DNA of 64,000 nucleotides from Ardenticatenaceae bacterium. Lineage in GTDB: Bacteria > Chloroflexota > Anaerolineae > Promineifilales > Promineifilaceae. The notes beneath the pieces are model-generated. The model was not told the DNA's origin, did no database searches, and was given only the letters and a program-made list of their open reading frames with translations. Positions 6,222 to 60,496 of this stretch are shown piece after piece; position 1 is the stretch's first letter, and every line of letters starts with the position of its first letter. Both the position numbers and the translations under genes were made by a program. The stretch spans positions 1 to 64,000 of the forward strand of contig JACKBT010000016.1 of the NCBI GenBank assembly GCA_020634415.1, in the 5' to 3' direction.

Positions 6222-8417
6222 ATGGGGCGTAAGTGGGATTTGACGGTAGATGATCCGCTAGCTTTGCGGCTGGCGGCGGATGTGCGCGGGGGGAAGACTG
6301 ATTATGGGGATGATCAGGTTTGGGAGTTGGATTTGGCGGCTCTGGGGTTACGAACAGTGTATGGGGGGCGTGGTTGGGGGAGGATTGATGTGGTGAACGG
6401 CCGTTTACCACACCTCCATTTCTTTTATCCCAATTATCTGCAATTGAGCTTCCGCAATGAACAGAATGAAGTGGTTATGGCCGAATTTTGGGCAGCGTCA
6501 AGCCATGCGGTGGCTTTGAGAGTGTCTGGTGAGGCAACGATTCGGGCGATGTATGAGGTGGATGGATTGTTGCCGGTGTGGGTGGAGGGAAACGGCCGTT
6601 ATGTGCTTGCTAGTCGGCCGGAAGCAGAAACTTCGTATCAATTGGCGCAAACCATACTTGAACAGGATTGGGATGTAATTTTTGAGCAAATTCATCAGTT
6701 AAACCAGTCTACGCCTGAAATTTATACGGGCGATTTGGACTGGGATGCAGCGTTGGCTTTTGCCTTTAAGGTGAGTTTGCAGAGTTATGTGGGTAAGACA
6801 GAGCATTTGCCGCACCCGAGTTTTGTTTTTACGCGGATACCGGAACGGGGATTTAGTCGGGTAGGGGATGGCTCGGATCATAATTGGCAGTGGGATGGGC
6901 AGGTGGCGACGGAGGCGTATGTGAATTTGCCGATGGTGGCGTATGCTGCGCCGGAGTTGGCGATGGGGGTGATCCGCAATTATTTGGCGGTGCAGGAGGG
7001 GGATGGATTTATTGATTGGAAACCAGGATTGGCGGGGCAGCGAAACGGCCGTCTTTGCATTCCTTTGTTAGCGGCCACAGTCTGGCACATTTATCAGCTT
7101 ACTGAAGATGCAGCGTTTTTGCGGGAAGTGTATCCTGGTTTGAGTCGTTTTTTGCGAGTATGGTATACGCTGCCGCATGATCGCGATCAGGATGGTGTGC
7201 CTGAGTGGGATACGACGATTCAGTCGGCTTTTGATGATCAGCCGAGTTTTGTACGCTATCGTGCCTGGGCGCAGCGGGCGGATATTACCAAAGTGGAGTC
7301 GCCTGATTTGATGGCTTATTTGTATCAGGAACATCGTGCAATGCAGCAGATTGAGGGGGTACTGGGGCTGGGGACTGATCCATTTCATGAGGAGCGGGCG
7401 GTGCATTTGGAGGGGCAGTTGGCGACGATGTGGCAGCCGATGACGCGCAGCTACCATTTCCGAGATAGGGACAGCCATGACTTGCCTACGCAGGCTCTGT
7501 TGTTGGCAATGGTGGCGGAGGAGGGTTTGACGGCCGTTAGCCAAACGGTGGGCGCATTTTTGCCTAAACCGAACCGAGTCCTTGTGCGGTTAGAGGCTAA
7601 TCGGCAACGGCCGAAATTGAATTTAGAAGTAACGATTGAAGGCATTAGCCAGGCAGGGTGGAGCACTACTGAGGTTTTAACAAGCCAAGATTTTTATTGG
7701 TATCAAACGAGTGGATCGGCGACTGGCGAGACTTTGTGGCAGTTGGTGGAGCGGGTGCATGTAACGGGGATGAGTGGTGTGATTACGGAGTTAGAGATTG
7801 TTGCGCCAGATTTGGGCCGACAAGATCAGACTTTGCTGCTGCCTTTGTGGGCGGGTATGGTGCGTGATGCTTTCGTGGAGCCGTTGGTGAAGCGGACGGT
7901 GACGGATCCGCGCCGTTATTGGCGGCGTTATGGGATGCCCAACTGTTCTGCCCTTGATCCGGCTTATCGTGCTGATAATCGAGAAGGGTCGGGTGGGGTG
8001 TGGTTGATGTGGAATACGATGATGGGGGAAGGGCTGCTGCGTTATGGATACCGACAGGAGGCGGCGGAACTGATTACTCGGCTGATGACGGCTATGTTGC
8101 ATACGTTGAAGACGGAGAAGTGCTTCCGTGAGGCTTATAACCCGGATGTGTTGGCTGGATTGGGGGAGCGGGATTATTTGTGGGGTGTGGCTCCTTGCCA
8201 TTTGTTTATGCAGGCTGTTGGTATTCGCATAATCAGCAGCAGTAAGGTGTATTTGGTAGGTTATAATCCATTTACCTGGTCGGTGACTGTGGTGCATAGG
8301 GGGGTGGTAGTGAAACGGCCGTCTGGCCCTGATGCTGAAACGGCCGTTATTTTTCCGCCGGGGGTGGCTGGTGAGGTGGCTGCCGATGGCAGTGTGAGAT
8401 TCCAGATTTTGCCTTGA
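6222..8417 (+). CDS. (alpha/alpha)6-barrel glycoside hydrolase-like protein (GH63/GH37 type)
   Basis: A 731-residue protein without signal peptide, so probably cytoplasmic. The first about 170 residues are beta-rich. From about 170 onward it is all-helical with toroid repeats typical of clan GH-G enzymes (trehalase, GH63 glucosidase and mannosylglycerate hydrolase). The pieces HNWQWDGQVATEAYVNLP, LPHDRDQDGVPEWDTT and GSGGVWLMWNTMMGEGLL correspond to the acidic substrate-binding loops of that clan. The substrate cannot be told; alpha-glucosides or a compatible solute are plausible. It follows the rplL terminator, so it has its own transcript, and the ribosome binding site is weak. Six exact ACGGCCGT copies lie in the frame, read as NGR or TAV. 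Confidence 0.6.
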   Translation: MGRKWDLTVDDPLALRLAADVRGGKTDYGDDQVWELDLAALGLRTVYGGRGWGRIDVVNGRLPHLHFFYPNYLQLSFRNEQNEVVMAEFWAASSHAVALRVSGEATIRAMYEVDGLLPVWVEGNGRYVLASRPEAETSYQLAQTILEQDWDVIFEQIHQLNQSTPEIYTGDLDWDAALAFAFKVSLQSYVGKTEHLPHPSFVFTRIPERGFSRVGDGSDHNWQWDGQVATEAYVNLPMVAYAAPELAMGVIRNYLAVQEGDGFIDWKPGLAGQRNGRLCIPLLAATVWHIYQLTEDAAFLREVYPGLSRFLRVWYTLPHDRDQDGVPEWDTTIQSAFDDQPSFVRYRAWAQRADITKVESPDLMAYLYQEHRAMQQIEGVLGLGTDPFHEERAVHLEGQLATMWQPMTRSYHFRDRDSHDLPTQALLLAMVAEEGLTAVSQTVGAFLPKPNRVLVRLEANRQRPKLNLEVTIEGISQAGWSTTEVLTSQDFYWYQTSGSATGETLWQLVERVHVTGMSGVITELEIVAPDLGRQDQTLLLPLWAGMVRDAFVEPLVKRTVTDPRRYWRRYGMPNCSALDPAYRADNREGSGGVWLMWNTMMGEGLLRYGYRQEAAELITRLMTAMLHTLKTEKCFREAYNPDVLAGLGERDYLWGVAPCHLFMQAVGIRIISSSKVYLVGYNPFTWSVTVVHRGVVVKRPSGPDAETAVIFPPGVAGEVAADGSVRFQILP

Positions 8418-8814
8418 ACTATTGGAGCACTCGTCTCAACGACATGGTTAATACTGTGTGTAATCAGCAATTTGAAATGTTTTCTCTAACAGTGCGTTAA
8501 TATACTTAGGGAAAATGAAAATACCAAATGCCTTATCTGGCCAAGCTCGGTTCAAAATAGTCTTTTGGTCAAAATTGACATGGGCAGCGCGATGGATTAC
8601 CCTACATGATTAACATGCAGGGTATGGAGAAGGTCGGTGCTCTCTTAGAGAAGACTATTTTGGTCAGATAAGAAGTGGGATAGCTTAAGGCGCAACCCGT
8701 GATGGTTTTAATTGCGGATAGTGGAGAGAAATAAAAATTTGCCATGAGATGCTCAAATAGTCGTCAGATTTGTGAAGTTGTTCGGGGAGATACTTTTTTT
8801 GGGGGGGTAGTACG
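8418..8814 (+). other. Gene-free spacer with a nested inverted repeat
   Basis: About 400 bases without a credible gene, AT-richer than its flanks. The only organised structure is the element at 8532-8671. A run of G and the sequence GGGGGGGTAG just before 8815 can serve as ribosome binding site for the kinase. Confidence 0.6.
8532..8671. repeat. 140-bp element with imperfect terminal inverted repeats and an inner hairpin
   Basis: The left end CTTATCTGGCC...CAAAATAGTCTT and the right end AAGACTATTTTGG-TCAGATAAG are inverted copies, with about nine extra bases in the left arm. At the centre, TACCCTACATG and CATGCAGGGTA (8598-8624) form a second hairpin around ATTAA. The layout suits a small non-autonomous mobile element or a structured RNA. 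Confidence 0.55.
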
Positions 8815-10290: not shown

Positions 10291-10360
10291 TTGGTTTTTA
10301 ACCAGGTATGGATAGGAGACGCTGATCTGATGGGATCGCTCTTTGCAATGAGAGGTAACC

Positions 10361-16261: not shown

Positions 16262-18682
16262 CTACTTTTCTCCCAGGGCCATTTTTACCGCTTCGTAGGC
16301 ATTGACAATGCCATAACCCGCGATGTTGTTGGGCACAACCGATGTATCCGTTTCTGCCAGACAAGTGCCAGTGGTGGGATCGGCCGTTCCTGTACCCAAC
16401 TCCTCTAACTGCGTTAGAAAATCAGCTTCACCTGCCTCCGAGGCAGGCTCAGTCGTGGGCTGGAAGCGGGTGGCGCTGGCCTGCAAAATGGTCTCCGTTT
16501 GCTCTATATCGCCGATGAGGGCCGGATTGGCTGACCAGATGAGGGCGACAACACCCGCTACATGCGGCCCGGCCATCGAAGTGCCAGAGTTAACGCCGTA
16601 GCTGCTGCCCGGCATAGCCGACAAAACATCCACGCCCGGCGCGGCAATGTCGGGTTTCACCCGCCCACTGCCATCCACCGCCACAGGCCCAGTGCTGCTA
16701 AAGCTGGCGATATTATTGTCAAAATCCACCGCTCCCACCGAGAACACTTCATCGTAAATGGCTGGCGCATCTTCCACCGAACTGCAATTGGGGCCGCTGT
16801 TGCCTGCCGAGACGACGACGAAAATGCCCGCAGCGCGGAGGGCGCGAACGGCCGTTAACAGCGACTCTGGATCACAGCCCTCATACGTTTCGGGGCAGCC
16901 CCACGAGTTGTTGAGAACGTGCGCCGATTGCGTGGGACGGCCGTCGGCCAAAGGGTCGCCGCCCTGAGGATAAGGAGCCAGCATAAACTGCATACAGTCC
17001 AGATACAGCGCGGGGTTGCCCAAATTGCGCACCAAATTGGCACAGGCAAACCATTGCGCATCGGGGGCCACGCCCGTGTTATTGCCCAAAACCGAGCCTA
17101 AAGTGTGCGTGCCATGTCCGCCATTGTCCACCGGCGCCACCGTGCCGCGCCAGGGGTCGAGCCAATAGCCACTATGGTCGCCCGCACTGCCCAAATACCC
17201 ATCCATCAGTTCGGGGTGATCCCACTGCACACCCGAATCGCTCTGGCCGACGATGATGCCCGCGCCGCGCACACCCAACTCCTGCCAGACGCGATCCGCG
17301 CCAATGTTGGTGAGATTCCATTGGGGGCTGCTGGGGGCAGGTTCAGGCAGGGAAGGCAGTTCGGCATCCTCGCTGATGGGGCGCAGGACGGGGCTGGGCA
17401 TGACGCGATCCACATCGGGGCGGGTGGCAAGCCAGAGGCGGACGAGCAGCCCGCCGCGCACTTCCAGGGCGTTGACGAGGTAGTAGGGCGTGTAGGTTAG
17501 GCCCAGATTGTCGAGCGATTGGCGCAAATCGGCCTGCGTGGTTTGGGCGTGGCTGGTGAGGGTGTCGTAAACGAACTGGCGGCGCTGGTCGTAGTCGGCG
17601 ATGGTGCTGGCTGATGAGACATCGGCTTGCGTGTTGAGGATGACAAAGAGCCTGTCGCCATACAGCCCTGGCTGGCCGCTGCTGAAGTACACGAAGAGGC
17701 TGAGGGCGAGGGTGATGAGGGTGAAGGCGGGGGCTAAACGGCCGTTCCCTCTCCCCAACCGCTCCCGTAAAAAGAACAAAACAAAACCCACAACCCAGGC
17801 AAAAACGGCCGTACTCAACATCGCTTGCAGACTGGCAAACAAAATGCCGTCAAAGGCCACCAGGTTCATGGCATCGGTGTCGGTGAAGGCCAGGATGATG
17901 GCGGCGGTGAGGCCAATTAATAATCCAGATGATAATGAATTGCCTTTGATGGCAAGGGCGGCCATGACCCAGGCCAGGGCGGGCAGGGCGATGATGAGCA
18001 GGATTTGGGTGCCGTTGAAGCTGAGGGCTGAGGCCAGGATGAGTACGGCCGTGCCCATCACAAAACCGCCCAGGGTGATGTCCCAGCCGGAGCCTTGACT
18101 ATGTTGGGGGAGAGTGGGCAGCCAGGAACGGCCGTTCACCAAACCCACCACTACGCCAAACATCAGCCCCAATATGAGCGTCAAAACGGTGTCTAGCAGT
18201 GAGCCTAACGCGCCTTGCAGGAACCAGGGCAGGCTGACCAGCAGGGCCAGGCTGATGGCTAACCACGCTGGTTTGCCGAAGGGCTGTTTGCGCCAGAGGA
18301 TGAGGATGAAGACGGCCGTTAATCCTGTCTGGGCCAGCAAAAGCAGTTGGCTGTGCGTGGGCAAGATTAAGCGGGTGAGGGCCAAAAGCAGTGGGTAAGC
18401 GCAGGCCAGCAGCCACGTCTGGAAAGCAGCGCGATAGCGTAAAAGCGGCCATTTCCAGGCCAGCAAAGCCGCGGGCAAGGCCACGAGGACGGTCTGGGCT
18501 AACACCGCCCATACCCAGGGCCACATCGCGTCGGCCACGCCAGCACCAGCCATAAACCAGGGTGTTCCCTGGGCGCTCAAGACGACAAAGGCATTCCAAA
18601 AGCTGAGCAGAACAACCAAAATACGCCCACCCCAGCTTTGCCAGGAGGGAACGGTTGGTTCGTGGTTAGAGGGTTCGATCAT
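16262..18682 (-). CDS. Polytopic membrane protein with C-terminal subtilisin (S8) protease domain
   Basis: 806 residues. The first about 345 residues hold around ten or more hydrophobic helices (from ILVVLLSFWNAFVVLSA on) with short loops. A linker of about 100 residues follows, reminiscent of an inhibitor-type prodomain. The peptidase domain (about 470 to 800) has the triad D482 in GQSDSGVQWDHPEL, H523 in GGHGTHTLG and S702 in GTSMAGPHVAG, with oxyanion Asn in SAGNSGPN. The protease is therefore tethered to the cytoplasmic membrane and probably faces outward. Most subtilases are secreted with a simple signal peptide, so this architecture is unusual. No ribosome binding site is evident at ATG 18682, which abuts a repeat element. 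At least seven ACGGCCGT copies lie in the frame. Confidence 0.88.
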   Translation of the reverse strand: MIEPSNHEPTVPSWQSWGGRILVVLLSFWNAFVVLSAQGTPWFMAGAGVADAMWPWVWAVLAQTVLVALPAALLAWKWPLLRYRAAFQTWLLACAYPLLLALTRLILPTHSQLLLLAQTGLTAVFILILWRKQPFGKPAWLAISLALLVSLPWFLQGALGSLLDTVLTLILGLMFGVVVGLVNGRSWLPTLPQHSQGSGWDITLGGFVMGTAVLILASALSFNGTQILLIIALPALAWVMAALAIKGNSLSSGLLIGLTAAIILAFTDTDAMNLVAFDGILFASLQAMLSTAVFAWVVGFVLFFLRERLGRGNGRLAPAFTLITLALSLFVYFSSGQPGLYGDRLFVILNTQADVSSASTIADYDQRRQFVYDTLTSHAQTTQADLRQSLDNLGLTYTPYYLVNALEVRGGLLVRLWLATRPDVDRVMPSPVLRPISEDAELPSLPEPAPSSPQWNLTNIGADRVWQELGVRGAGIIVGQSDSGVQWDHPELMDGYLGSAGDHSGYWLDPWRGTVAPVDNGGHGTHTLGSVLGNNTGVAPDAQWFACANLVRNLGNPALYLDCMQFMLAPYPQGGDPLADGRPTQSAHVLNNSWGCPETYEGCDPESLLTAVRALRAAGIFVVVSAGNSGPNCSSVEDAPAIYDEVFSVGAVDFDNNIASFSSTGPVAVDGSGRVKPDIAAPGVDVLSAMPGSSYGVNSGTSMAGPHVAGVVALIWSANPALIGDIEQTETILQASATRFQPTTEPASEAGEADFLTQLEELGTGTADPTTGTCLAETDTSVVPNNIAGYGIVNAYEAVKMALGEK

Positions 18683-30631: not shown

Positions 30632-33103
30632 ATGAACTTTTCTGTAAAACGTCTATTTATTGTTTTGTTAACCAGCTTGTGCCTGGCAACGGCCGTTATC
30701 TCCGTGGCCCTGGCGATGATGCCAGCAGAAGAAGCGGCTGGTGGCATCAGCCTTTCATTGTCCAGCCACGCCACTGGTCTAAGCAGCCCCGTTTCCATTG
30801 CCAACGCCGATGCCGGCTACGGCCGCCTCTTCGTCGTCGAGCAGGTAGGGCGAATCAAAATCGTCGAGCCAAATGGAACCGTCAGAAGCACCCCCTTCCT
30901 CGACATCATTGGCCGTGTAGATTCATCGAGCAGTGAAGAAGGGCTGCTGGGTCTGGCTTTTCATCCCCAGTATTACGACAACGGCTATTTTTATGTCAAC
31001 TACACCAACACCACCGGCGGCATTCGCCGCACCCGTATTTCACGTTTCAGCGTAACGGCCGATCCTACCCTTGCCGACCCCAACAGCGAAGACATCCTCC
31101 TGACCATCGTGCAGCCCAGTTCCAACCACAACGCGGGCGACATCCATTTTGGCTCAGACGGCTACCTCTACATCCCCCTCGGGGATGGCGGCGGCAGTGG
31201 GGACACCAGCAACAACGCCCAAACTCTCAGTCTGGCCTTAGGCAAAATTCTGCGTATAGATGTAGATAACCCCGCCGGAGTGACCCCGCCTGAATGCAAC
31301 GATGTCGGCGGCAGCAACAACTTCACCATCCCCGCCGACAACCCCTTTGTGGGGGCCGACGGCGTTTGCGACCTCATTTGGGCCATTGGGCTGCGCAACC
31401 CCTGGCGCTCCAGCTTTGATCGCCTGACGGGTGACTTTTTCTGGGGTGATGTAGGTCAGGGGTCATGGGAAGAAGTGGATCACCAGTCGGCCGCCTCTAC
31501 CGGTGGCGAAAATTATGGCTGGCGCTGTTACGAGGGCGATCACCCCTTCAACACCAATGGCTGTGGCCCTATAAGCCAATACACCTTCCCCATTTTTGAG
31601 TTTGAAAGCTCAACCAACTGCTCGGTTATTGGCGGCTATGTCTATCGCGGCACACAATATCCGGCGATGGCGAGCCATTATCTGGTGACGGATTACTGTT
31701 CGGGTAATTTCTGGGATATGGTGGTGGATAATACCGGCCTGTTTACGCCCACCATGCACACCAACTTGACCACATTTGGCTATGTCTCTTTTGGCGAGGC
31801 GGCCGACTGTGAACTGTATCTCTCCAACATTAACAATGGCACGATTTACCACATTCAGGAGACGACGCTGCAAGTGCCGCGAACGGCCAGTACGGCTCTG
31901 TGCAACAATCGGCCAGTGGCGGCGGATGATGATGGTTATGAGCTGATGCAGGGTGGGGTGCTGGTGGTGAATGCGCCCGGTGTGTTGGGCAATGACGGTG
32001 ATTTGGATGGGGATGGTTTAACGGCCGTTGCCATCACCCCCCCCACCAACGGCAGCCTCAATCTCAATCTGGACGGCTCCTTCACCTACACCCCCACTGC
32101 CAACTTCTTCGGCATAGATACCTTCACCTACCGGGCACTGGACAGCTATGATGAGTCCAGCCTGGCGACGGTGACGATTACGGTGACGGAAATTAATACC
32201 GCGCCCGTCGCCCTGAATGATGTGTACACAACGACCTGGAATGTGCCATTTTCGGTGGCCGCGCCCGGTGTGCTGGATAATGATACCGATGTGAATGGGG
32301 ACAGTTTAACGGCCGTTCTCGACACCCCACCCAGCCAGGGCAGCCTCACCCTGCTGGCTAGTGGGGCCTTCGTCTACACCCCCACCGCCAACTACACCGG
32401 CACAGACAGCTTCACCTACTATGCCTTTGACGGCGGCGATAATTCCAATATGGCCACCGTGTCTCTCACCATTGTCGAGGGCAATGCACCGCCGGTAGCC
32501 ATTAGCGACAATTACAGCACCACCCAAGACACCCCCCTGACGGTAGACCCGCCCGGTGTGCTGGCTAATGATAGCGATCCCAATGGCGACAGCTTAACGG
32601 CCGTTCTCAACACCCCACCCATCAGCGGCAGCCTGGCTCTCAACCTGGATGGCTCCTTCATCTACACGCCCAATCTCAACTTTGCCGGACAAGACAGCTT
32701 CACCTATTTTGCCAACGATGGGCTGGATAATTCCCTAGAACCGACGACAGTTTGGCTGGAGGTCATTGCTGGCAATCAGCCGCCGACGGCGACCGATGAC
32801 CACTACACCACCAGCATTAACACCCCGCTGCTGGTAGCCGCGCCCGGTGTGCTGGCTAATGATGAGGACGTGAATGGGGATGTTGTAACGGCCGTTATCG
32901 CCACCATCCCCGTCACCGGCAGCCTTACTCTTAATGGCGATGGCTCCTTCACCTACACGCCCACCCTGGACTTCACTGGCACAGTCACCTTCACCTACCG
33001 CGCCACCGACGGCCAGGCCCAATCCAACGCGGCCCTGGTCACTATCGAAGTGACACCCATGTTGAGCTATGTATATCTGCCCTTTGTGGTGAACGAACCC
33101 TAG
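30632..33103 (+). CDS. Secreted PQQ-type sugar dehydrogenase with tandem cadherin-like repeats
   Basis: 823 residues from ATG 30632 (AAGGAG 11 bases upstream; the in-frame GTG at 30620 overlaps that site). A signal peptide covers about 1 to 28. The beta-propeller (about 45 to 415) is of the GSDH/sorbosone dehydrogenase family, with EEGLLGLAFHPQYYDNGYFYVNYT, SNHNAGDIHFGSDGYLYIPLGDGG and WAIGLRNPWRSSFDR; PQQ would be cofactor. Four cadherin-like modules follow (about 425 to 810), each with PGVLANDxDxNGDxLTAV and DGSFTYTPxxNFxGxDSFTY, as in surface adhesins. The tail SYVYLPFVVNEP matches a segment seen in several proteins here. Each repeat carries an AACGGCCGTT at the LTAV codons. Confidence 0.85.
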   Translation: MNFSVKRLFIVLLTSLCLATAVISVALAMMPAEEAAGGISLSLSSHATGLSSPVSIANADAGYGRLFVVEQVGRIKIVEPNGTVRSTPFLDIIGRVDSSSSEEGLLGLAFHPQYYDNGYFYVNYTNTTGGIRRTRISRFSVTADPTLADPNSEDILLTIVQPSSNHNAGDIHFGSDGYLYIPLGDGGGSGDTSNNAQTLSLALGKILRIDVDNPAGVTPPECNDVGGSNNFTIPADNPFVGADGVCDLIWAIGLRNPWRSSFDRLTGDFFWGDVGQGSWEEVDHQSAASTGGENYGWRCYEGDHPFNTNGCGPISQYTFPIFEFESSTNCSVIGGYVYRGTQYPAMASHYLVTDYCSGNFWDMVVDNTGLFTPTMHTNLTTFGYVSFGEAADCELYLSNINNGTIYHIQETTLQVPRTASTALCNNRPVAADDDGYELMQGGVLVVNAPGVLGNDGDLDGDGLTAVAITPPTNGSLNLNLDGSFTYTPTANFFGIDTFTYRALDSYDESSLATVTITVTEINTAPVALNDVYTTTWNVPFSVAAPGVLDNDTDVNGDSLTAVLDTPPSQGSLTLLASGAFVYTPTANYTGTDSFTYYAFDGGDNSNMATVSLTIVEGNAPPVAISDNYSTTQDTPLTVDPPGVLANDSDPNGDSLTAVLNTPPISGSLALNLDGSFIYTPNLNFAGQDSFTYFANDGLDNSLEPTTVWLEVIAGNQPPTATDDHYTTSINTPLLVAAPGVLANDEDVNGDVVTAVIATIPVTGSLTLNGDGSFTYTPTLDFTGTVTFTYRATDGQAQSNAALVTIEVTPMLSYVYLPFVVNEP

Positions 33104-43594: not shown

Positions 43595-46294
43595 ATGCAG
43601 GTACACAGCAAAATTGGTTTTCACAGTGGGCCTACCGGCAATATGGACGGCATTGGCAATTATTGGCGCAAATTGTCGAATGCGGGTGTACCCATCTTCC
43701 ACAAGGCGGCCGATGGGTATGGCCCTTTGTATGAGATTGCCGAACTTGTACCTAATCCGCACAATGTGGAGCATTATCTTGTGTACCGCATGAGTACGCG
43801 GGGGCAGAATGATGGTTATGATTATGATGTGCCTCCTTATCATAAAGCGCCACGTGAGGCGGCCAAGGAGCATTGGCAGCGCACTCGTGATAAGCTGCCG
43901 AAGGAGTTTAACCGGGAGAAGGTGTGGGTGGAGCCGATTAATGAGATTGACAAAAACCGCTGTGATTGGCTGGGTCGTTTTGCGGTGCATACGGCGAATC
44001 TGGCGCAGGCGGATGGGTTTAAGGTGACGCTGTTTGGCTGGTCGAGTGGGGAGCCGGAGCGGGAAGGCTGGGAGACGGAGGGGATGCTGAAGTATTTGCG
44101 TTTGTGTGCGGAACGGCCGAATCAGGCGGCCGTTTCGGTTCATGAATACAATTTTGGTTTGGATGCCTATGAAAAGGTGTATCCGTACCATGTCGGCCGT
44201 TTCCAGATTTTGTTTGATGTTTGTGACAATCATGGCATCGCCCGGCCTAATATTCACATCACTGAATGGGGGTGGGCCTTGAATAATGTGCCTTCGTGGC
44301 AAAATGCCGAGTCGTACATCACTAAAGCCAACGAACTGTATGCCAAGTTCCCTGAAATTAAGGGGACTGCTATCTGGAATTTGGGGCGCGGGCCAGAGTT
44401 TGGCGATGTGCATAACCAGACGAATCGGCTGATGGCACCGCTGGGTGATTATAATTTGAACCGTCGTTTTGAAGGGCCAAAAGCGGATGGGCCAACTCCG
44501 ATTGACCCTGTTTTTCACCAAGAATCGGCCGCCTCATCGGGGCGTAACCAGCCGTCGTCGCCGACCCCGCGGCCCACACCGCCGACAACGACGGGGCCCA
44601 CGCCAACTATTGTGAACACGATGGGGGGAGGGCAGCAGGGGAAACGGCCGTCTATCCAACCCGGCGTGCAGTTTGTGCGTGATGTTAATTTGCCCGACGA
44701 TTCGCGTATTATCGCCGGTACTCAGTTCACCAAAACGTGGCGTGTGCGCAACAGCGGCAATGCCTCTTGGGGGGCTGACTACAGGCTAAAGCATGTGGGT
44801 GGCACGGCCATGACAGACAGCACCAGCCAGCTTGTTCCCACCATCCACCCCGGCCAGGAGACGGATGTTTCGGTGAGAATGGTTGCGCCCACCACGCCGG
44901 GTACATATGTGAGTGATTGGCGCTTTCAGGATGACAATGGCAATTTCTTTGGCGACAACATCTTCACGCGCATTATTTCTGAAGCCCCCGCGCCGGTTGC
45001 AGGCACGAGTGGCAGCCAATTTGTGATGGATGTGAATATTCCTGATGACACGGTGATGGAGCCGGGACAGACCTTTACCAAGACGTGGCGTTTGCGCAAC
45101 AGTGGCACACGTGCCTGGGGGGCCGGTTTTACGGTGAATTTCATTAATGGTGTGCCTATGACGGGGGCCACGAGCCAGCCTATTCCGGCGGCGGCCCCTG
45201 GCACGGAAGTGAATATTTCGATTGCGATGACGGCCCCGAATGATGCGGGGAGTTATACAAGTGAGTGGTTACTGAAAGATGATCAGGGCAATTTTTTCGG
45301 CGCTAATTTCTATACTCGGATCGTGGTTAAAAAAAAGCAGCGGCGCAGTAGGGCTGCGGTAAAGCTGCAAACGGGCATGAACATTAATCCCGATGCGCCG
45401 AACAGCAATCCGGTGGAGGGGGATGCTTTGCGGGGGACGGATTGGGTGCGTTTTGTGTTTAAGCTGGCGGCGCGGGAGAATGCGGCGGAGCGTGGTGATA
45501 TTAACCATGCGTTTGCTCAGTATGATCCGCTGGTGCGTAAGTATCATAATAAGGGGGTGAAGTCGCTGATTGTGCTGAATCAGGAGACGGTGTGGGGGAA
45601 TGCGCCCTGGACGGGGAATGATGATTGGCGCACGTTTGGCAGTCAGTTGGCGCAGGTGGCGCGGCAGATTGCGGCGCGTTATAGGGAGTATGGGGCGGAT
45701 GTGGGGTATGAGATTTGGAATGAGGGGGATTTGCCGAATAATCCGGCTTCGGTTTATGTGGAGCCGGAGCAGTTTGCGGGGGTGTTGAAGACGGTGGTGG
45801 CGGCGATTCGGGCGGAGTCGCCGGAGTCGCCGTTGGTGTTTGGTGGTTTGGCGACGGGGCCGGACCAGGGGATTGTGTATTTGCGCCGTTGTTGGCAGGC
45901 GTTGGGTGGGGTGTGGCCGGTGGATGCGATTGGGATTCATCCATACGGCCGTTGGGCGACCCGTGCGCCGTTTGATTGGGGGACACAGTTTGGGACGCTG
46001 GGGCAGGCTTTGGCGCAGTATGAGGAGAATTTCCCGGATATGCCGTTTTGGATTACGGAGATGGGGGTGGCGGCTGATAATGAGATTGGGCCGGAGCATT
46101 ATGCGGCGATTGCGGATTATTTGACGGATGTGTATGAGCATGTAGCGGCGGAGCATACGGCCGTTGTGCCGGTGCTGATTTGGTTTGCCTGGTCTGATTG
46201 GATGCGGAATTCGGGTGTTGTGCGCCGTGATGGCAGCCACAAAGCGCATGTGTATGAGGCGTTTCAGGGTGTGATTAAGGCACGGGATAAGTAG
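43595..46294 (+). CDS. Two-barrel glycoside-hydrolase-like protein with NBR1-type Ig domains
   Basis: 899 residues. AAGGAG at 43581 is eight bases before the ATG, and there is no signal peptide. Barrel 1 (about 1 to 300) has IGFHSGPTGN, NEIDKNRCDWLG (acid/base Glu), HEYNFG, ITEWGWAL (nucleophile Glu) and GTAIWNLGRG. A Pro/Thr linker follows. Two NBR1-like Ig domains come next (about 360 to 470 and 475 to 575), each with F(T/V)KTWR(V/L)RNSGxxxWG. Barrel 2 (about 595 to 895) has YEIWNEGDLPNN and FWITEMGVAADNE, again two Glu in GH-A positions. It is a gene fusion of two related barrels bridged by Ig domains. Despite an extracellular-type design it lacks an export signal. Cytoplasmic or non-classical export is open. 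Confidence 0.75.
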   Translation: MQVHSKIGFHSGPTGNMDGIGNYWRKLSNAGVPIFHKAADGYGPLYEIAELVPNPHNVEHYLVYRMSTRGQNDGYDYDVPPYHKAPREAAKEHWQRTRDKLPKEFNREKVWVEPINEIDKNRCDWLGRFAVHTANLAQADGFKVTLFGWSSGEPEREGWETEGMLKYLRLCAERPNQAAVSVHEYNFGLDAYEKVYPYHVGRFQILFDVCDNHGIARPNIHITEWGWALNNVPSWQNAESYITKANELYAKFPEIKGTAIWNLGRGPEFGDVHNQTNRLMAPLGDYNLNRRFEGPKADGPTPIDPVFHQESAASSGRNQPSSPTPRPTPPTTTGPTPTIVNTMGGGQQGKRPSIQPGVQFVRDVNLPDDSRIIAGTQFTKTWRVRNSGNASWGADYRLKHVGGTAMTDSTSQLVPTIHPGQETDVSVRMVAPTTPGTYVSDWRFQDDNGNFFGDNIFTRIISEAPAPVAGTSGSQFVMDVNIPDDTVMEPGQTFTKTWRLRNSGTRAWGAGFTVNFINGVPMTGATSQPIPAAAPGTEVNISIAMTAPNDAGSYTSEWLLKDDQGNFFGANFYTRIVVKKKQRRSRAAVKLQTGMNINPDAPNSNPVEGDALRGTDWVRFVFKLAARENAAERGDINHAFAQYDPLVRKYHNKGVKSLIVLNQETVWGNAPWTGNDDWRTFGSQLAQVARQIAARYREYGADVGYEIWNEGDLPNNPASVYVEPEQFAGVLKTVVAAIRAESPESPLVFGGLATGPDQGIVYLRRCWQALGGVWPVDAIGIHPYGRWATRAPFDWGTQFGTLGQALAQYEENFPDMPFWITEMGVAADNEIGPEHYAAIADYLTDVYEHVAAEHTAVVPVLIWFAWSDWMRNSGVVRRDGSHKAHVYEAFQGVIKARDK

Positions 46295-46346
46295 ATAGTT
46301 ACCAGGTATGGCGCGAAAATTAGAGGTGAAAAAGGGGCCAGGGGCA

Positions 46347-46374
46347 TTGCTGTCATTCATGTAAATGCTATCAT
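46347..46374 (+). promoter_or_regulatory. Candidate promoter of the MBL-STAS-kinase-ATPase gene
   Basis: TTGCTG (46347-46352), a 16-base spacer and TATCAT (46369-46374), 29 bases before the ATG. Confidence 0.4.
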
Positions 46375-46403
46375 ATGACGCATGTCATGCTTAAAAGGGT
46401 CGT

Positions 46404-49400
46404 ATGAAGATTAAGTTCTGGGGCGCACGCGGTTCGGTCCCCTCACCGATTACACCGGATGTTATTGAAGAAAAGATTTGTCAGGCGATATGGGGGATGC
46501 CCGAGATTGATACGTCTGATATGGATGCGGTGCGGGCGTATGTGGGGGGGCTGCCTGTGCTGCAGCGGCGCACGGCGGGGGGAAATACGGCTTGTGTCGA
46601 GATTCAGGCGGGTAATGAGACGATTATTGTTGATGCGGGATCGGGTATTCGTGATTTAGGTTTTCAGTTGATGAAGGGGCCGTGTGGCCGGGGTGAGGGG
46701 GTGCTGCACCTGCTGTTTACGCATTGCCATTGGGATCATATTCAGGGGTTTCCGTTTTTTGTGCCGGCGTTTATTCCGGGGAATCAGATTTTTGTGTACA
46801 GCATTCATGATGTGGAGTCGGCGCTGGTGGGGCAGCAGGAGCCGCCGTTTTTTCCGGTGCCGCTTTCTTATTTGCGGGCGGAGATGTCGTTTACGCGGTT
46901 GGAGGTGGGACGGCCGTTTGCCATTGGCAAGGTAACGATTAATACGCTGGAAAATGCCCATCCCGGTAAAGCCTATAGTTATCGTTTTGAGACGCAGCAT
47001 AATGTGTATGTTCATGCCAGTGATGCGGAGTATAAGAAGTTGGATGATGCGCATGTGCAGCCGTATATTGAGTTTTTTAGGGATGCGGATGTGCTGGTGT
47101 TTGATACGCAGTATACGCTGCGGGAGGCGTGGCAAAAGGTGGATTGGGGGCATAGTTCGGCCATGATTGGGGCGGATTTGGCCCGCCGGGCGGGGGTGAA
47201 GAAGATGCTGATGTTTCACCATGATCCGACGTATTCGGATGATGAGCTGCAAAAGATGTTGATGACGGCGCAGGATTATCAGTTGCAGGATGCGACGCTG
47301 CCGCGGGTGGAGATTGAGGTGGCTTATGAGGGGATGGTGCTGGATTTGATTCCGCCGGGGGCGGTGGATGTGCATGTGGATGGGGATGTGATGATTTTGA
47401 CGCCGCTAAACGGCCGTGATGGGTTTGAGCTTTTGGCGGATCAGTTGGCGCAGGTGGATAAGGAGGGGAAATCGGTGATTGACCTGTCGCAGGTGGAGAC
47501 GCTGACGACGGCTAGTTTGCAGGAGATTGTGGCTTTGAGTCAGGCGCGGCAGGAGGGGCCGGTGGTGCTGGCGGCTCCGTCGGCGGCTATTCAGCAGGTG
47601 ATTAAGCTGGCGGGTTATTTGGATTATTTTCCGATTTATACGTCGGTGGAGGCGGCGTTAACGGCCGTTCAGGCCCGTGAAGCTTTGAATTTGCCCGGCC
47701 AATTGTTGGGGAAACGGTATCAGATTCAAAATAAGGAGAATGAGGATCCGTTATCGGCCGTTTTGCGAGCTACTGATACCTGGACGGAGGAGACGGTGGC
47801 TATCAAGATCATCAATCCGGCCTTTAGCCAGGAAACTATTGAGAGGGTTATGCAGCAGTCGGCCCAGCTTATTGATCTCAATTTTCCCTACATTGTGCCT
47901 GTTTATGCCTGGGAAAAGGAGAAGGATTTTGCCTTTATTGTCGAAAGTTACATCATGGCTCCTTCTTTGCAGGATATGTTGGATCGCAAAGAGGAGGTTG
48001 ACCCTGATGAAGCGTTGGAAATTGCATTGGATCTGACGCAGACGCTGGAATATGTGCATAGTCGCGGCATTATTCATGGAGATTTGCGGCCGCATCATAT
48101 TTATATGACGGATGCGGGCATTAAGTTGGGTGGGTTTGGTCTGGGGCGTTTGCTGGAGGGGCGCAATCTTTTGGAAGCGCCGATGCTGTTTTTGCCCACG
48201 CCTTATTTGGCCCCGGAGCAGATTTTGGGGCAGTCGCTGGATGCGCGGACGGATTTGTATGCGTTGGGGGTGGTTTTGTATCGGTTGTTTGCGGGGCGGC
48301 TGCCGTTTGTGGGTAATGATATGGAGATTATGCGGGCGCATATTTATGAGGAGACGCTGCCGCTGCGCCAGCTTAATCCGTCTATTTCGCCTTCGATGGA
48401 GCATTTGATTCTTAAATTGTTGTCGAAGAATCCGAACGGCCGTTATACCAGTGCCCATCAAACCCATCGTGTCTCTAGCAATCTTACTATCAGTGTGGAT
48501 GATCCTACGTTTAGCCATCGTGCGCCTTTCATTAAACGGGAAAGACAGTTAAAAACGTTGCAAACCTGCTGGCAGTCGGCGCAAAGTGGGGAGGGTTATC
48601 TGGTGTTTGTGACGGGTGAGCCGGGGGTGGGTAAGACGACGTTGGTGCAGCAGGTGGTGGCTCAAAGTGAGCCGCCGGTGTTGTTGATCGGCCGTTGCCG
48701 TGAGGCGGAAGGCAAAACGGCTTATCACCTTTTTAGCGAGATATTGCAAATGTATTTCGCCACTGTGCCGCCCGAATTTTATGATAAAGAGGCGCAAAAG
48801 TTGTTGAGCAATTTTGTGCGCCTTGTGCCGGAAATCCGCCATATGCTGCCGGATGTGGCGGCGCTGCCTTCTTTGGAACCGGCGGAGGAGCAACTGCGCC
48901 TGATGTCTGGGCTGACGCAGTTTGTGCGTAAGGCGACGCAGGAGCGGCCCTGGTTTCTGATTTTGGAGAATTTGCAGTGGGCTGATTCGAGCAGTCTGGA
49001 ACTGCTGCGATATTTGAGCCACCATTTGCCGACGATGCGGCTGTTGATTGTGGGGATTTACCGTGATGTGGAGTTGGAACAGGGCCATCCGCTGATGCAG
49101 ATGATTCGGGATTTGGGCAGCTATCCTACGTTTAAGGAGATTTCGCTGGGGCGGCTGGATGCGGCGGGGGTGGCGCAGATTTTGGAGTTTATCTGGCAGC
49201 AGGAGGTGCCGCAGGCATTGGTGGAGAAGGTGTATCAGCATACGGAGGGTAATCCGTTTTATGTGGAGGAGGTGGCGAATGGGTTGATGGATGATGGGTT
49301 GGTGGTGTGGCAGAACGGCCGTTGGCAGTTCCCTACGTTGGCTGAGTTACGTTTGCCGGCTACTGTGCATGAGGCGGTGTGGCGGCGCATTTCCCGCTTG

Positions 49401-51197
49401 AACCCGGTGACGCAGAATTTGTTGGGGGAAGCGGCCGTTTTCGGCCAGACTTTTCGCTTTGAAGACTTGCAAGCCATTAGCGGCTTGTCGGAGTGGGAGG
49501 TGTTGGAGCATTTGGATGTGGCGATGGAGCGGCAGTTGGTGCAAGAGGTGCCGGGGGAAACGATGCTGCGCTTCCGGCACGCGGAAATTCAGCAGGTGCT
49601 TTATGCCGATTTGGGGGTGCTGCGCCGCCGACTGTTGCACCGCACGGTGGCGGAATGGTATGAGAAAAAATACATTACCTCCCAGCCTTCGCCTGAAACG
49701 GCCGCGCCTAATCCTGTGGCTTATCCTCTGTTGGCCTACCACTTTCACCATGCGGAGGATGTGAATCAGGAGCGCCATTATGCCCGATTGGCGGGGGTGC
49801 AGGCGGCGGCTCAATTTGCTAATGCGGAAGCGATCACCTACTTTAGCCGGGTGCTGGCTCTGACACCGGAGGCTGACCTGCTGCTGCAATATGAGGTGCA
49901 TCTGTTGCGGGAACGGATTTATGATAGGCAGGGAATCCGGCAAGCGCAGGTGCAGGATTTGGCGGTGTTGACGGATTTGGCGGAAAGATTGGCGGATGGT
50001 GAAGCGGCTTCTATGCAGCGTAAGGCGGTTGTGGCTTTGCGGCAATCGAATTTTGCGGAAGGGACGGGGGATTATGCAGGGGCGATTGTGGCGGCGCAAA
50101 CGGCCGTTGCTCTGGCGCAACATTGCCAGGATGTCAGTTTGGAAGCCATTGGTTATTTGCGTCATGGTTCGGCTTTGTCGCGGCTGGGCAATTATGATGA
50201 GGCCCGCCCCCAATTTGAAAAAGCTCTCAAACTGGCCGAAACGGCCGACTTGAAGCAGATCAAGGCTCGCAGTCTGCGCAACTTGGGCATTGTTACCTGG
50301 CAGCAGGGGGATTACGAGGCTTGTAAGGCGTATGATCAACAGGCTCTGGCCCTCTACCAGGCCATCGGCGATTTGCACGGTGAAGGCAAGGCATCGGGGA
50401 ATTTGGGGGTTTCTTATTGGGATATGGGGGATTATGTGCAGGCGGTGTATTACTATAAACGGGCGTTGGAGATTTACCGACAAATTGGGGACCGACACGG
50501 GGAGGCGATTATTTTGAATAATTTGGGTGTGGTGGCTGATGAACAGGGGGATTATGAAACGGCCGTTGCCCACATTGAAAAAGCCCTAACCATCTGCCGC
50601 GACATTGGGGATCGGCACGGTGAAGCGGCGCGACTCTCTAGTTTGAGCCGGCCCTATCATCACCTGGGTGACGATGACACGGCACTGAAATACTCCCAAG
50701 AAGCGGTGACATTGGCGCAAGAGTGGGGTGGTGGCCGCCAGCTTGGTTATGCTCTGAACAACATGGGCAATGCGCTTTATGGCCTACAGCGCTGGGCAGA
50801 AGCGGCAGCGGCTTATCAGCAGTCGGTGTCCATACGCCAGGAGTTGGGGGAGATTCACTTAGCGATGGATGCCCATGCCGGGCTGGCGCGTGTCTATCTG
50901 ACCCAGGCAAACCTGGCCGAGGCGTTGACGCAAGTGGAAATAATTTTAGCCTATTTGCAGAAGGGCCGGTTGGATGGAACATCGGAGCCGTCTCGAATCT
51001 CTTGGACATGTTACCAGGTTTTGCAAGCCGCCAACGATCCGCGAGCCACGGGGATTTTGCAGATGGCTGTGCAGCGACTCCAGGCATTGGCTGTGCAGAT
51101 AGGAGATGACGCGGTTCGTCGTTCGTTTTTGGAAAATGTAGCTGTGAATCGTCTGCTTGTTGCCGAATGGGCAAAGCAGAGGGAGCAGGCCGAATGA
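46404..51197 (+). CDS. Metallo-beta-lactamase / STAS / pseudokinase / AAA (STAND) ATPase / TPR fusion protein
   Basis: A 1597-residue single chain. MBL fold at about 1 to 315 with zinc motif T106-H-C-H-W-D-H112, plus the later HASD and FHHDPTYSD motifs. STAS-like domain at about 320 to 430 (VIDLSQVETLTTASLQEIVAL). Kinase fold at about 435 to 700: VAIK with K468, HGDLRPHH with D560 (Asn of HRDxxxxN replaced by His), but DFG is G577-F-G, so the metal-binding Asp is missing; APEQ is kept. AAA/STAND ATPase at about 715 to 1030 with Walker A GEPGVGKTT (K744) and ILENLQWAD. TPR-type repeats from about 1120 to 1560 (NLGVSYWDMGDYVQAVYYYKRALEI). PknK-like kinases share the last three parts; the MBL-STAS front is unusual. 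Cytoplasmic; ligand unknown. Confidence 0.85.
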   Translation: MKIKFWGARGSVPSPITPDVIEEKICQAIWGMPEIDTSDMDAVRAYVGGLPVLQRRTAGGNTACVEIQAGNETIIVDAGSGIRDLGFQLMKGPCGRGEGVLHLLFTHCHWDHIQGFPFFVPAFIPGNQIFVYSIHDVESALVGQQEPPFFPVPLSYLRAEMSFTRLEVGRPFAIGKVTINTLENAHPGKAYSYRFETQHNVYVHASDAEYKKLDDAHVQPYIEFFRDADVLVFDTQYTLREAWQKVDWGHSSAMIGADLARRAGVKKMLMFHHDPTYSDDELQKMLMTAQDYQLQDATLPRVEIEVAYEGMVLDLIPPGAVDVHVDGDVMILTPLNGRDGFELLADQLAQVDKEGKSVIDLSQVETLTTASLQEIVALSQARQEGPVVLAAPSAAIQQVIKLAGYLDYFPIYTSVEAALTAVQAREALNLPGQLLGKRYQIQNKENEDPLSAVLRATDTWTEETVAIKIINPAFSQETIERVMQQSAQLIDLNFPYIVPVYAWEKEKDFAFIVESYIMAPSLQDMLDRKEEVDPDEALEIALDLTQTLEYVHSRGIIHGDLRPHHIYMTDAGIKLGGFGLGRLLEGRNLLEAPMLFLPTPYLAPEQILGQSLDARTDLYALGVVLYRLFAGRLPFVGNDMEIMRAHIYEETLPLRQLNPSISPSMEHLILKLLSKNPNGRYTSAHQTHRVSSNLTISVDDPTFSHRAPFIKRERQLKTLQTCWQSAQSGEGYLVFVTGEPGVGKTTLVQQVVAQSEPPVLLIGRCREAEGKTAYHLFSEILQMYFATVPPEFYDKEAQKLLSNFVRLVPEIRHMLPDVAALPSLEPAEEQLRLMSGLTQFVRKATQERPWFLILENLQWADSSSLELLRYLSHHLPTMRLLIVGIYRDVELEQGHPLMQMIRDLGSYPTFKEISLGRLDAAGVAQILEFIWQQEVPQALVEKVYQHTEGNPFYVEEVANGLMDDGLVVWQNGRWQFPTLAELRLPATVHEAVWRRISRLNPVTQNLLGEAAVFGQTFRFEDLQAISGLSEWEVLEHLDVAMERQLVQEVPGETMLRFRHAEIQQVLYADLGVLRRRLLHRTVAEWYEKKYITSQPSPETAAPNPVAYPLLAYHFHHAEDVNQERHYARLAGVQAAAQFANAEAITYFSRVLALTPEADLLLQYEVHLLRERIYDRQGIRQAQVQDLAVLTDLAERLADGEAASMQRKAVVALRQSNFAEGTGDYAGAIVAAQTAVALAQHCQDVSLEAIGYLRHGSALSRLGNYDEARPQFEKALKLAETADLKQIKARSLRNLGIVTWQQGDYEACKAYDQQALALYQAIGDLHGEGKASGNLGVSYWDMGDYVQAVYYYKRALEIYRQIGDRHGEAIILNNLGVVADEQGDYETAVAHIEKALTICRDIGDRHGEAARLSSLSRPYHHLGDDDTALKYSQEAVTLAQEWGGGRQLGYALNNMGNALYGLQRWAEAAAAYQQSVSIRQELGEIHLAMDAHAGLARVYLTQANLAEALTQVEIILAYLQKGRLDGTSEPSRISWTCYQVLQAANDPRATGILQMAVQRLQALAVQIGDDAVRRSFLENVAVNRLLVAEWAKQREQAE

Positions 51198-55941: not shown

Positions 55942-55946
55942 ATTCC

Positions 55947-57462: not shown

Positions 57463-57474
57463 GAAAAGAACCCC

Positions 57475-59952
57475 ATGAGTCAACAAGATGATTTTGACCT
57501 CACTCACAATCCCCAACTGTTAGGCATGTTGTCTGACTTGGATGATGAGTTATTTGAAGATGATTTGATGGAGAGGGATGGCTACATTGAGTGCCCCTTC
57601 TTGCCCTTGCGCGACATGGTGATTTTCCCGCAGATGGTAACACCCTTGTTTGTGGGACGCGAGCGATCCTTAGCGGCCGTGCAAGCCGCCATTGCCAATG
57701 GCGAAAAGCTCATCGTCTCCGCTCAGCGCGATGGCGATGTCAACGATCCGGGTATGCGTGACATTTTTCCGGTAGGCACAGAAACTTCTATTAGCCGCGT
57801 CATGCGGATGCCGGATGAGAGCACCAGTGCTTTGGCGCAGGGCCGCCGCCGTGTGGAAATTCTCGAATTTACGCAGTGGGACCCCTATATTCGGGTCCGC
57901 GCTCGGACGATTTATGAGCCAATGGAATGGGTGGGTAACACGGAGACGTTGATGCGGGCGGTGCTGGCTTTGTTTGAGAAGGTGGTGGATTTGAACCGCC
58001 AACTGCCGGATGATGCCTATGTTTTTGCTGAAAATATTCACGAACCGGGCTGGCTGGCCGATTTTATGGCCTCCACATTGAATATGCCTTTGCTGGCGCG
58101 GCAAGATATTTTGGAGACGGCTGAGCCAACGGTGCGCCTGCAAAAGGTGAGCATTTTGCTGGCGAAAGAGCTGGAGGTTTTGGAGCTAGAGAATGAGATT
58201 CATACGCAGGTGCATCAGGAGGTGGAGCGGTCGCACCGGGAGCATTTTTTGCGTGAGCAGATGCGGGTGATTCAGGGTGAGTTGGGGGAATTGGATGTCT
58301 TTACGCAGGAATTGCATGAACTGCGGGAGGCTGTTGACAAAAAGCCTTTGCCGGAGGAGGTGCGGGCCAAAACGGAAAAGGAGTTGGCGCGGTTGGGGGC
58401 GATGCCGCCTATGTCGCCAGAGGTGGGCATTATTCGCACGTATATTGATTGGGTGTTGGATTTGCCCTGGCTGGAGGAGTCGCCGGATAACCTGGATGTG
58501 GCCCATGCGGCGGAGGTGCTGGATGCGGATCATTTTGGTCTGGACAAGGTGAAGGATCGCATTTTGGAGTACATTGCGGTGAAGAAGATCGCTTCGGATA
58601 AGATGCGCAGTCCGATTTTGTGTTTTGTGGGGCCGCCGGGAACGGGGAAAACGTCGGTCGGCCGTTCTATTGCCAGGGCTTTGGGGCGTGAGTTTGTGCG
58701 CATTAGTTTGGGTGGTGTGCGTGATGAGGCGGAGATTCGGGGGCATCGCCGGACGTATATTGGGGCGCTGCCGGGGCGTATTATTCAGGCCATGCGGCGG
58801 GCGGGGACGCGCAATCCGCTTTTTATTTTGGATGAAGTGGATAAGTTGGGGCAGGATTTTCGGGGTGATCCGGCGGCGGCTTTGTTAGAGGTGCTGGACC
58901 CTGAGCAGAATGACACCTTTGCTGACCATTACCTTGACCTGGATTTTGATTTGTCGAAGGTGATGTTTATTACGACGGCGAATCTGTTGGATGGGATTCC
59001 ACCGGCGTTGCAGGATCGGATGGAGGTGATTGAGTTTTCGGGCTATTTGGAAGAGGAGAAGTTGGAAATCGGCCGTCAATTTCTGGTGCCGCGCCAGTTG
59101 GAGGAGCATGGTTTGGGGCAGGCGGATATTCGTTTTGAGGATGAGGCGATGAAGATGCTGATTCGCCGGTATACGCGGGAGGCAGGGGTGCGCAATTTTG
59201 AACGGGAGGTGGCAAATGTGTGCCGTAAGATTGCGCGATTGGTGGCGGAGGAGAAGCGGTTTACGCGCCGTATTACGCCGCCGAAGGTGGAGGAGTTGTT
59301 GGGGCCGCCGCGCTTTGGGCAGGAGGAGCTGCAAGAGGTGGATGAGATTGGGGTGGCGACGGGGGTGGCCTGGACGGCCGTTGGCGGTGACATTCTCTTT
59401 ATTGAAGTGAATTTGATGCCCGGTAAAGGTAATCTCAAGTTGACGGGTAAGCTGGGTGAGGTGATGCAGGAGAGTGTTCATGCTGCTTTGAGTTATGTGC
59501 GCAGCCAAAGTGAACTGTTGGGCATTGACCCGGAAGCGTTTGAGCAAACAGATATTCATGTGCATGTGCCGGAAGGGGCTGTGCCCAAGGATGGGCCATC
59601 GGCGGGGGTGACGATGGCCACGGCGTTGGTGTCGGCGTTTACGCAACGGCCGATTTACCGTGAAGTGGGCATGACGGGTGAAATTACGCTGCGGGGGCGG
59701 GTGCTGCCTGTGGGCGGCATCCGCGAGAAGGCACTGGCGGCTAGGCGGGCGGGGGTGAAGACATTCATCATGCCCCGGAAGAATGAGAGTGATTTGCTAT
59801 CCATCCCCGAAAAGCTGCGGGAGGATATTCATTTTGTGTTGGTGGAGCGGATGCAGGAGGTGTTGTTGGAGGCGTTAAGGCCAACGGCCGTTCCTGTTCG
59901 CCCCCGTGCGCGGCGTAAAACACCGCCGATGTCCAGTGCGCCGTTAAATTAA
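57475..59952 (+). CDS. lon: ATP-dependent Lon protease
   Basis: 825 residues, a cytoplasmic AAA+ serine protease for damaged or regulatory proteins. An acidic N-tail is followed by the LON N-domain ([24 protein letters not shown]), a coiled coil (about 240 to 320), Walker [10 protein letters not shown] with K392, Walker B ([12 protein letters not shown]), and the protease domain with dyad S709 in [11 protein letters not shown] and K752 in [12 protein letters not shown], 43 residues apart as in E. coli Lon. The AATTACGT tandem directly upstream is a possible regulatory site. No CIRCE element is seen. The C-terminus has a short basic extension rich in Arg/Pro. Two exact ACGGCCGT copies. Confidence 0.97.
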
Positions 59953-59954
59953 TG

Positions 59955-59981
59955 CGTAAAACGTATTTTTTACGTTTTACG
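59955..59981 (+). terminator. GTAAAACGTA-type hairpin after lon
   Basis: CGTAAAACGTA and TACGTTTTACG pair around TTTTT three bases past the lon stop, and GTTTTAC is repeated once more after it. It probably works as a terminator. The sequence is related to the tandem at 23466. Confidence 0.6.
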
Positions 59982-59998
59982 TTTTACATTTTTGTTCA

Positions 59999-60496
59999 AT
60001 GTCCACAAAGTATGCAGAAGCGACTGGATTTCACCGTTTGATGCGGCAGATGGCGACCAAACGGCCGATTACGTGGCTTTATGCTCACATGTTGCATCAT
60101 CTGGATGGTTTGGTGCTGCGGGGGACGAACGGCCGTTACACGGCCACAAGCCTGATGACGGGACTGCCCATCATCAATCTCACTACTATTGGAGCCAAAA
60201 GCGGGCGGACGCGAACTGTGCCTTTGCTGGGCATACCAGATGGGGATAACATCATCGTGATTGCTTCCAATTGGGGGCAGAAGCAGTACCCGGCCTGGTA
60301 TTACAACGTGAAGGCCAATGAAGAAGTGATGGTGGAGTGGAACGGCCGTTCCACTCCCTACCTTGCCCAAGAAACAACTGGAACAGAACGAGAAAAATAT
60401 TGGCAGTTAGCCAACCAATATTACCTGGGCTACGCCAACTACGCTCAACGCGCCAGCCATCGGCATATTCCTGTCATCGTGCTGACACCCGAATAA
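59999..60496 (+). CDS. Deazaflavin (F420)-dependent nitroreductase family protein, Ddn-like
   Basis: 165 residues forming one split beta-barrel. The family marks are NLTTIGAKSGRTRTVPLLGIPDGDNIIVIASNWG followed by HPAWYYN-type AWYYNVKANEEVMVEWNG and ARQ/EREKYW. Members bind F420 and reduce enones, quinones or nitro compounds, or act on unknown substrates in Actinobacteria and Chloroflexota. It begins shortly after the hairpin that follows lon, and ends before a GGAGACT repeat. F420 biosynthesis genes are not in the window, so cofactor use is inferred. Two AACGGCCGTT copies with very clear strand-composition switches. Confidence 0.85.
   Translation: MSTKYAEATGFHRLMRQMATKRPITWLYAHMLHHLDGLVLRGTNGRYTATSLMTGLPIINLTTIGAKSGRTRTVPLLGIPDGDNIIVIASNWGQKQYPAWYYNVKANEEVMVEWNGRSTPYLAQETTGTEREKYWQLANQYYLGYANYAQRASHRHIPVIVLTPE

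Follow-up and report, generated by a model that had tools for sequence, protein, structure and literature searches.

The window analysed here, a 64-kb stretch of chromosomal DNA from an uncultured Anaerolineae-type Chloroflexota bacterium (contig JACKBT010000016.1), raises the question of why a single short palindrome should recur all along it, and why the two strands should exchange their base composition at its copies. The 8-bp motif ACGGCCGT is present 91 times in the window, as compared with 4 copies of the runner-up 8-bp palindrome, and the 10-mer AACGGCCGTT is found in 43 copies, all of them inside the 91; both motifs are perfect palindromes by inspection of the sequence. The full set spans positions 39 to 63175, with no strand assigned and a mean distance between copies of about 700 bp. 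Each copy carries arms of about 40 bp, in which the top strand shows G over C on the left and C over G on the right. Both the palindrome and this switch are confirmed as real.

The strand switch and its controls

The size of the switch was taken as the fall in G minus C from the left to the right of a copy, counted over 35 bp per side after skipping the nearest 5 bp. In the window, where 90 of the 91 copies were measured because the one at 39 lies too near the end, the mean fall is 8.89 as compared with -0.06 at random sites (z = 11.7), a value as high being reached by none of 5000 resamplings; 74 of the 90 copies fall, against 46% of random sites, and 16 show no fall. Genome-wide tests were run on relatives of the window's organism, designated G genomes, and five of these complete the six sets studied in depth: the mean fall is 6.30 in G001 (486 of 639 copies fall), 6.70 in G036 (420 of 522), 8.20 in G017 (181 of 220), 4.58 in G035 (169 of 226) and 6.24 in G049 (178 of 235). 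Across the six sets z ranges from 11.7 to 25.6, with random sites at about zero. The G-rich-to-C-rich switch centred on the motif that an earlier note on this DNA had described is thus sharp and antisymmetric in all of them, and it is displayed by every dialect of the motif (ACGGCCGT, TCGGCCGA and GCGGCCGC, which have the core CGGCCG in common and vary in the outer base). Small samples from other genomes mostly go in the same direction, the exceptions having few copies (G022, n=3; G004 and G005, n=7 each).

In 400 kb of G001, with 639 copies, the top-strand skew passes from +0.36 within 5 bp on the left to -0.44 within 5 bp on the right, and decays over about 50 bp. The reach of the switch is about 40 bp per side. 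Within it, whichever strand leads 5′ to 3′ into the motif is the one with G in place of C; this is true of either side and does not depend on gene direction. The earlier note had also pictured a sawtooth of skew with its drops at the palindromes, of which the local drop stands but the full sawtooth does not, because the switch fades within about 40-100 bp and the copies lie some 700 bp apart, so that a local spike is a better description. The left arm of the window looks longer than the right because the background skew of the top strand is positive. In the first few base pairs, the neighbours proper to each dialect override the skew (for example, C precedes the core at 0.72 in G049). The G+C content is about constant at the motif in G001 and G049, but in G017 and in the left arm of the window it is higher by about 0.06 at 5-10 bp. 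Copies with the preferred outer base on both sides tend toward a stronger switch, as seen in G001 (AA 0.238 versus GT 0.111), in G049 (CC 0.244 versus AC 0.10) and in the AA copies of the window (0.356).

That the switch is not a coding effect, as had been proposed, is borne out by plus-coded, minus-coded and intergenic copies, by fourfold sites and by controls from the same gene and frame. With genes called for this analysis as greedy longest open reading frames, the G001 copies behave much alike whether they lie in plus-coded (n=304), minus-coded (n=297) or intergenic DNA (n=36). Control sites drawn from the same gene and frame show no switch in the window, G001, G017 or G049, the four sets so examined, and the excess over them in the window amounts to 11.0 +/- 1.4 for plus-coded copies (n=37) and 7.3 +/- 1.3 for minus-coded ones (n=48). 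The skew moves the same way at all three codon positions and is largest at third positions and fourfold sites. At the fourfold sites of G001 lying 6-12 bp out, G:C is 0.48:0.15 in sense and 0.57:0.15 in antisense, as compared with 0.33:0.35 and 0.37:0.31, respectively, far away; ln(G/C) is therefore shifted by about 1.2 (calculated by hand) on sense and antisense alike, which makes the direction of transcription irrelevant. A transcription-strand effect is refuted by these equal shifts, and a coding or codon effect by the same likeness together with the flat controls.

The switch is not a property of CGGCCG itself either, since it is flat at 520 CGGCCG sites of G038. Away from the motif, the skew at CGGCCG is near zero in G036, G017 and G049, and reaches +0.057 in G001 (n=225) and +0.080 in the window (n=65); for GGCC, CCGG and GCGC outside the motif it never departs from zero by more than 0.02 in the five sets.

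The five sites on which the earlier note had rested, each of them a AACGGCCGTT and none with a strand assigned, were recovered with exactly the same arm counts, and they are strong examples among the window copies. They lie, with their arms, at 6361..6440 (motif 6396-6405; G:C 21:1 on the left and 1:12 on the right over 35 bases), 17702..17781 (motif 17737-17746; 17:3 and 3:14 over 30 bases, as for the remaining three), 18092..18171 (18127-18136; 15:4 and 2:14), 50523..50602 (50558-50567; 13:2 and 4:11) and 60306..60385 (60341-60350; 13:2 and 3:13). On the other hand, the copies at 32021, 32309, 32597 and 32888 recur at almost the same point of a repeated coding unit, with spacings of 288, 288 and 291 bp. 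The motif was therefore probably spread there by internal gene duplication, and some window copies are not independent.

Conservation and distribution of the motif

The copies are individually maintained. The alignment of G036 with G037, which covers 159 kb at 7.1% divergence, has 353 of 372 copies unchanged and 19 discordant, with 2 more falling across gaps, as compared with 57-59% retention among controls (245 of 432 other 8-bp palindromes; 16,373 of 27,608 8-mers with six G/C). A smaller first alignment of the same genomes, superseded by this one, had given 176 of 183; in it, third codon positions had diverged at 6 of 408 sites (1.5%) inside the core and at 3155 of 22714 (13.9%) outside. 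In more distant pairs, the ungapped copies kept are 33 of 34 (G015-G014), 26 of 28 (G015-G013) and 30 of 35 (G013-G014), against 37%, 37% and 52%, respectively, of 8-mers with six G/C. Because its copies are individually maintained, the 8-bp core looks functional rather than a by-product, and its sequence record suggests strong selection or active restoration.

The flanks follow another regime. The earlier note had suggested comparing substitutions around the sites in sister genomes, and between G036 and G037 the flanks evolve no faster than elsewhere: divergence there equals the background, about 0.07 overall and 0.069-0.079 in all bins. Relative exchange rates within 20 bp of the motif are close to those at 150-400 bp (A-G 0.185 near and 0.203 far; C-T 0.221 and 0.208), the main exception being A-C (0.082 near versus 0.053 far), and yet the base frequencies in the arms are shifted. 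This combination of near-ordinary exchange rates and shifted frequencies suggests weak selection, or a fixation bias, acting at many positions of the arms. The skew between these two genomes is 0.163 at shared copies; at the few discordant ones (n=19) it is 0.110 where the motif is present and 0.082 where it is lacking.

The family of genomes grouped with G001 comprises 52 members, 29 of which carry at least 300 copies of AACGGCCGTT, with a peak of 5,060 in G019 (7 of the reversed control) and 4045 in G001 (12 of the reversed control). Outside the 52, the top count in a draw of 298 genomes from the class is only 24. Other members use other dialects: TCGGCCGA is found 221 times in 160 kb of G017 (9,414 genome-wide) and 226 times in 140 kb of G035 (7,668 genome-wide), and GCGGCCGC 235 times in 160 kb of G049 (12,040 genome-wide). 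No version is abundant in G038, where TCGGCCGA alone is in mild excess (646 versus 138 of the reversed control). G004, G005 and G053-G056 show intermediate counts or mixes of two or three dialects, and are possibly in transition between them.

Coding DNA of G001 holds 1.6-1.7 copies per kb, as compared with 1.0 in intergenic DNA, and the motif is therefore not a promoter element. Spacing between copies is near random apart from a scarcity below 20 bp: where about 48 such pairs would be expected over the six sets, 5 occur (summed by hand), and the expectation drops to about 29 if distances under 8 bp, which the sequence mostly forbids, are left out. Between 20 and 40 bp, 35 pairs are found against about 47 expected, with no consistent lack and with G035 above expectation. 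Motif positions in the Lon gene across 31 sequences form too sparse a map.

What may read the motif

The reading we favour, with a confidence that falls slightly short of an even chance, is that of a genome-wide, individually maintained palindrome in which the G-to-C switch would be the weakly selected outer zone of a putative symmetric-protein site. A dimeric protein with two-fold symmetry would read the core, and each of its halves would act outward along its own arm with the same polarity; if so, the strand entering the motif would be the one contacted, opened or tracked. The stronger switch at copies with the preferred outer base is as expected if occupancy shapes the arms. The role of such a site would lie in chromosome upkeep, most likely as a landmark for recombination or repair, a suggestion that comes from the polarity of the arms and from their having no tie to transcription.

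Several observations weigh against this reading. No binding protein was found, and none of the six protein families searched in the 52 genomes follows the motif, although most of these genomes are fragmented and single absences mean little. The base adjoining the core diverges at 0.12 and nothing past the 8 bp is strongly held, while CGGCCG in other contexts is itself fairly well kept as a 6-mer (76 of 96 in the smaller G036-G037 alignment). Left and right arms show no consistent correlation in strength (r between -0.21 and +0.24), and they have no clear helical periodicity by eye, only a 3-bp coding rhythm. Some of the skew persists at motifs one base off, both in G001 (0.089, n=176) and in the window (0.133, n=52); it is slight in G036 (0.040, n=91) and there is hardly any in G017 (0.006, n=43) and G049 (0.008, n=14). 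Finally, a mutation bias that left the total rate unchanged could yield the same arms.

A strand-asymmetric mutational process, in which a nick or cut at the motif would be followed by resection or resynthesis of a 20-40 nt outward tract whose strands mutate differently, is the least unlikely of the alternatives, though still an unlikely one. The signal is antisymmetric, fades smoothly with distance, is strongest at fourfold sites and, in G001, raises both G and T on the entering strand. Deamination of exposed single strands would predict T over A together with G over C. In fact, T over A tracks G over C in G001, but hardly in G017, and is reversed, or at best absent, in G049. The mutagenic nick, resection, repair synthesis or fork convergence put forward in the earlier note also sits poorly with flanks that diverge at the background rate with close to ordinary exchange rates, and with a core that itself hardly mutates.

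Cyanobacteria offer a second comparison in their highly iterated palindromes (HIPs), among which HIP1 (GCGATCGC) has reportedly been the object of a selection study by Xu and co-workers (2018). According to PMC4390886, HIP1 and the alternate HIPs are short GC-rich palindromes present about 1-2 times per kb, which have palindromic extensions and for which related genomes can use alternative versions, and Elhai proposed for HIP1 that marking by a methyltransferase and methyl-directed mismatch repair create and keep the palindromes. The present motif is likewise short, GC-rich and far above chance at about 1-2 copies per kb, its extensions are palindromic too and its relatives use other versions, and the MutL family (PF01119) is matched in 48 of the 52 genomes. 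It is nevertheless doubtful that a methyltransferase marks CGGCCG here and that the skew is a side effect of such repair. Cytosine methylases of PF00145 are matched in 24 of the 52 genomes and lack a match in nine with about 1,900 or more copies of the 10-mer (G001, G010, G018, G020, G026, G029, G036, G037 and G046); PF01555 is matched in 48, weakly in G001, G020 and G046 (best E 4.3e-8, 9.5e-10 and 5.0e-4). PF00145 and PF01555 thus gave no cytosine methyltransferase that the high-copy genomes have in common, other methylase families not having been searched and the metagenome-assembled genomes (MAGs) being incomplete. The motif-rich G046 has no match to PF01119, and Vsr short-patch repair was rejected as a candidate, Vsr being present in only 8 of the 52. 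Moreover, the repair model as written leaves the 40-bp polar arms unexplained. HIP1 has another core and belongs to another phylum, and in contrast to the strong arms described here its drop on the cyanobacterial plasmid pAQ7 (218 copies) is weak (1.29; z 3.4; reached by 3 of 5000 resamplings; 117 of 218 copies fall), which speaks against the switch as a property of every HIP; the drop on pAQ7 (L255, L257 and L258) may represent the same phenomenon in faint form.

DNA uptake sequences and uptake signal sequences (DUS/USS) occur in thousands of copies and form dialects between related clades, as in the Neisseriaceae. The palindrome could by analogy be a tag that a competence machinery prefers and that biased uptake and recombination preserve, and its thousands of kept copies and clade dialects resemble such sequences; ComEC-family proteins are found in 47 of the 52 genomes. 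This explanation appears rather improbable. To our knowledge the known uptake sequences are not palindromic. ComEC is present with and without abundant motif (e.g. in G038, which lacks it), and its presence is therefore not discriminating; divergence around the copies is flat, with no trace of local gene conversion, and the polar arms would remain unaccounted for.

A classic Chi-type site is quite improbable. Chi is short, over-represented and different between clades, non-palindromic and active in one orientation. Papers cited in PMC3763553 argue, to judge by their titles, that codon usage accounts for the GT-rich islands around it, whereas codon controls leave the present switch intact. The likeness lies in shortness, over-representation and strand polarity: a helicase-nuclease of the RecBCD/AddAB type would read the motif and a G-rich entering strand would aid RecA loading, and the G-rich strand is indeed, on either side, the one whose 3′ end would lie at the motif. 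TGG repeats give the most stable RecA filaments (PMC3763553), but TGG near the motif is not enriched beyond composition. The motif here is palindromic, and at 111 Chi sites in 400 kb of E. coli the flanks are not skewed under codon-matched controls (-0.85 +/- 0.39 and -0.64 +/- 0.40, n=107). PF12705 is matched in 45 of the 52 genomes, mostly in short frames; large frames of at least 900 aa, of the RecBCD/AddAB type, occur in only nine, and the motif-rich G001, G002, G003, G020 and G046 were found to have shorter ones only. Widespread in the family, with or without abundant motif, is a small PD-(D/E)XK nuclease frame (PF12705; about 280 aa; e.g. G001:C1:73130-73840).

An effect at the level of RNA or coding (hairpin or terminator, R-loop, G-quadruplex or codon usage) is very hard to credit: single copies such as that at 60341 have complementary arms, and CCC in the window is more frequent close to the motif than composition predicts (1.49 versus 1.00 far away), as it also is in G049, but arms pair with their own partner no better than with swapped ones (minimum free energy -16.1 versus -15.9 +/- 0.3), which rules out a hairpin, a repetitive extragenic palindromic (REP)-like element or a terminator, GGG as well as TGG track composition near the motif about as they do far away, which disposes of selection for G-quadruplexes or TGG repeats, and the coding controls and the higher density in coding DNA speak against the rest.

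Carried further, the favoured symmetric-protein site may be a bidirectional, strand-polar landmark for DNA processing, with one dimeric reader whose specificity would have drifted between clades to give the dialects, and whose outward action over about 40 bp would impose a preference for G over C on the strand that enters the motif, at as many as about 12,000 sites in one genome; this fuller version is possible, but we hold it somewhat more tentatively. In any case, the motif amounts to a HIP-like system outside cyanobacteria, with dialects, close relatives that lack it and a flank signature that points outward. Since each copy is kept in its own right and the arms preserve a polarity, comparative and biochemical work can now test what the motif does; were the protein found, the system would stand as a further class alongside Chi, uptake sequences and methyl-marked HIPs. 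A literature search turned up no paper about this motif or about strand switches at HIPs; three papers contain ACGGCCGT or TCGGCCGA as words and, to judge by their titles and the start of their abstracts, deal with other subjects, GCGGCCGC not having been searched.

Setting of the window

The window holds five tRNA matches and an L10 leader. The full-length relatives of its Lon protein come from Anaerolineae MAGs and are 72-73% identical to it; among the family genomes the identity reaches 76%. Three records titled as a Klebsiella pneumoniae MAG (L027, L043 and L076) encode a Lon 49-51% identical to that of the window and rank among deltaproteobacterial loci, and these titles may be mislabelled. 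A plasmid origin of the window was considered and rejected, the 7.6-kb stretch 43595-51197 having no near match among plasmid records. Within this stretch, 46404-51197 forms a single frame of 1597 aa that joins a beta-lactamase fold to STAS, protein kinase, AAA and TPR domains, an unusual signalling fusion.

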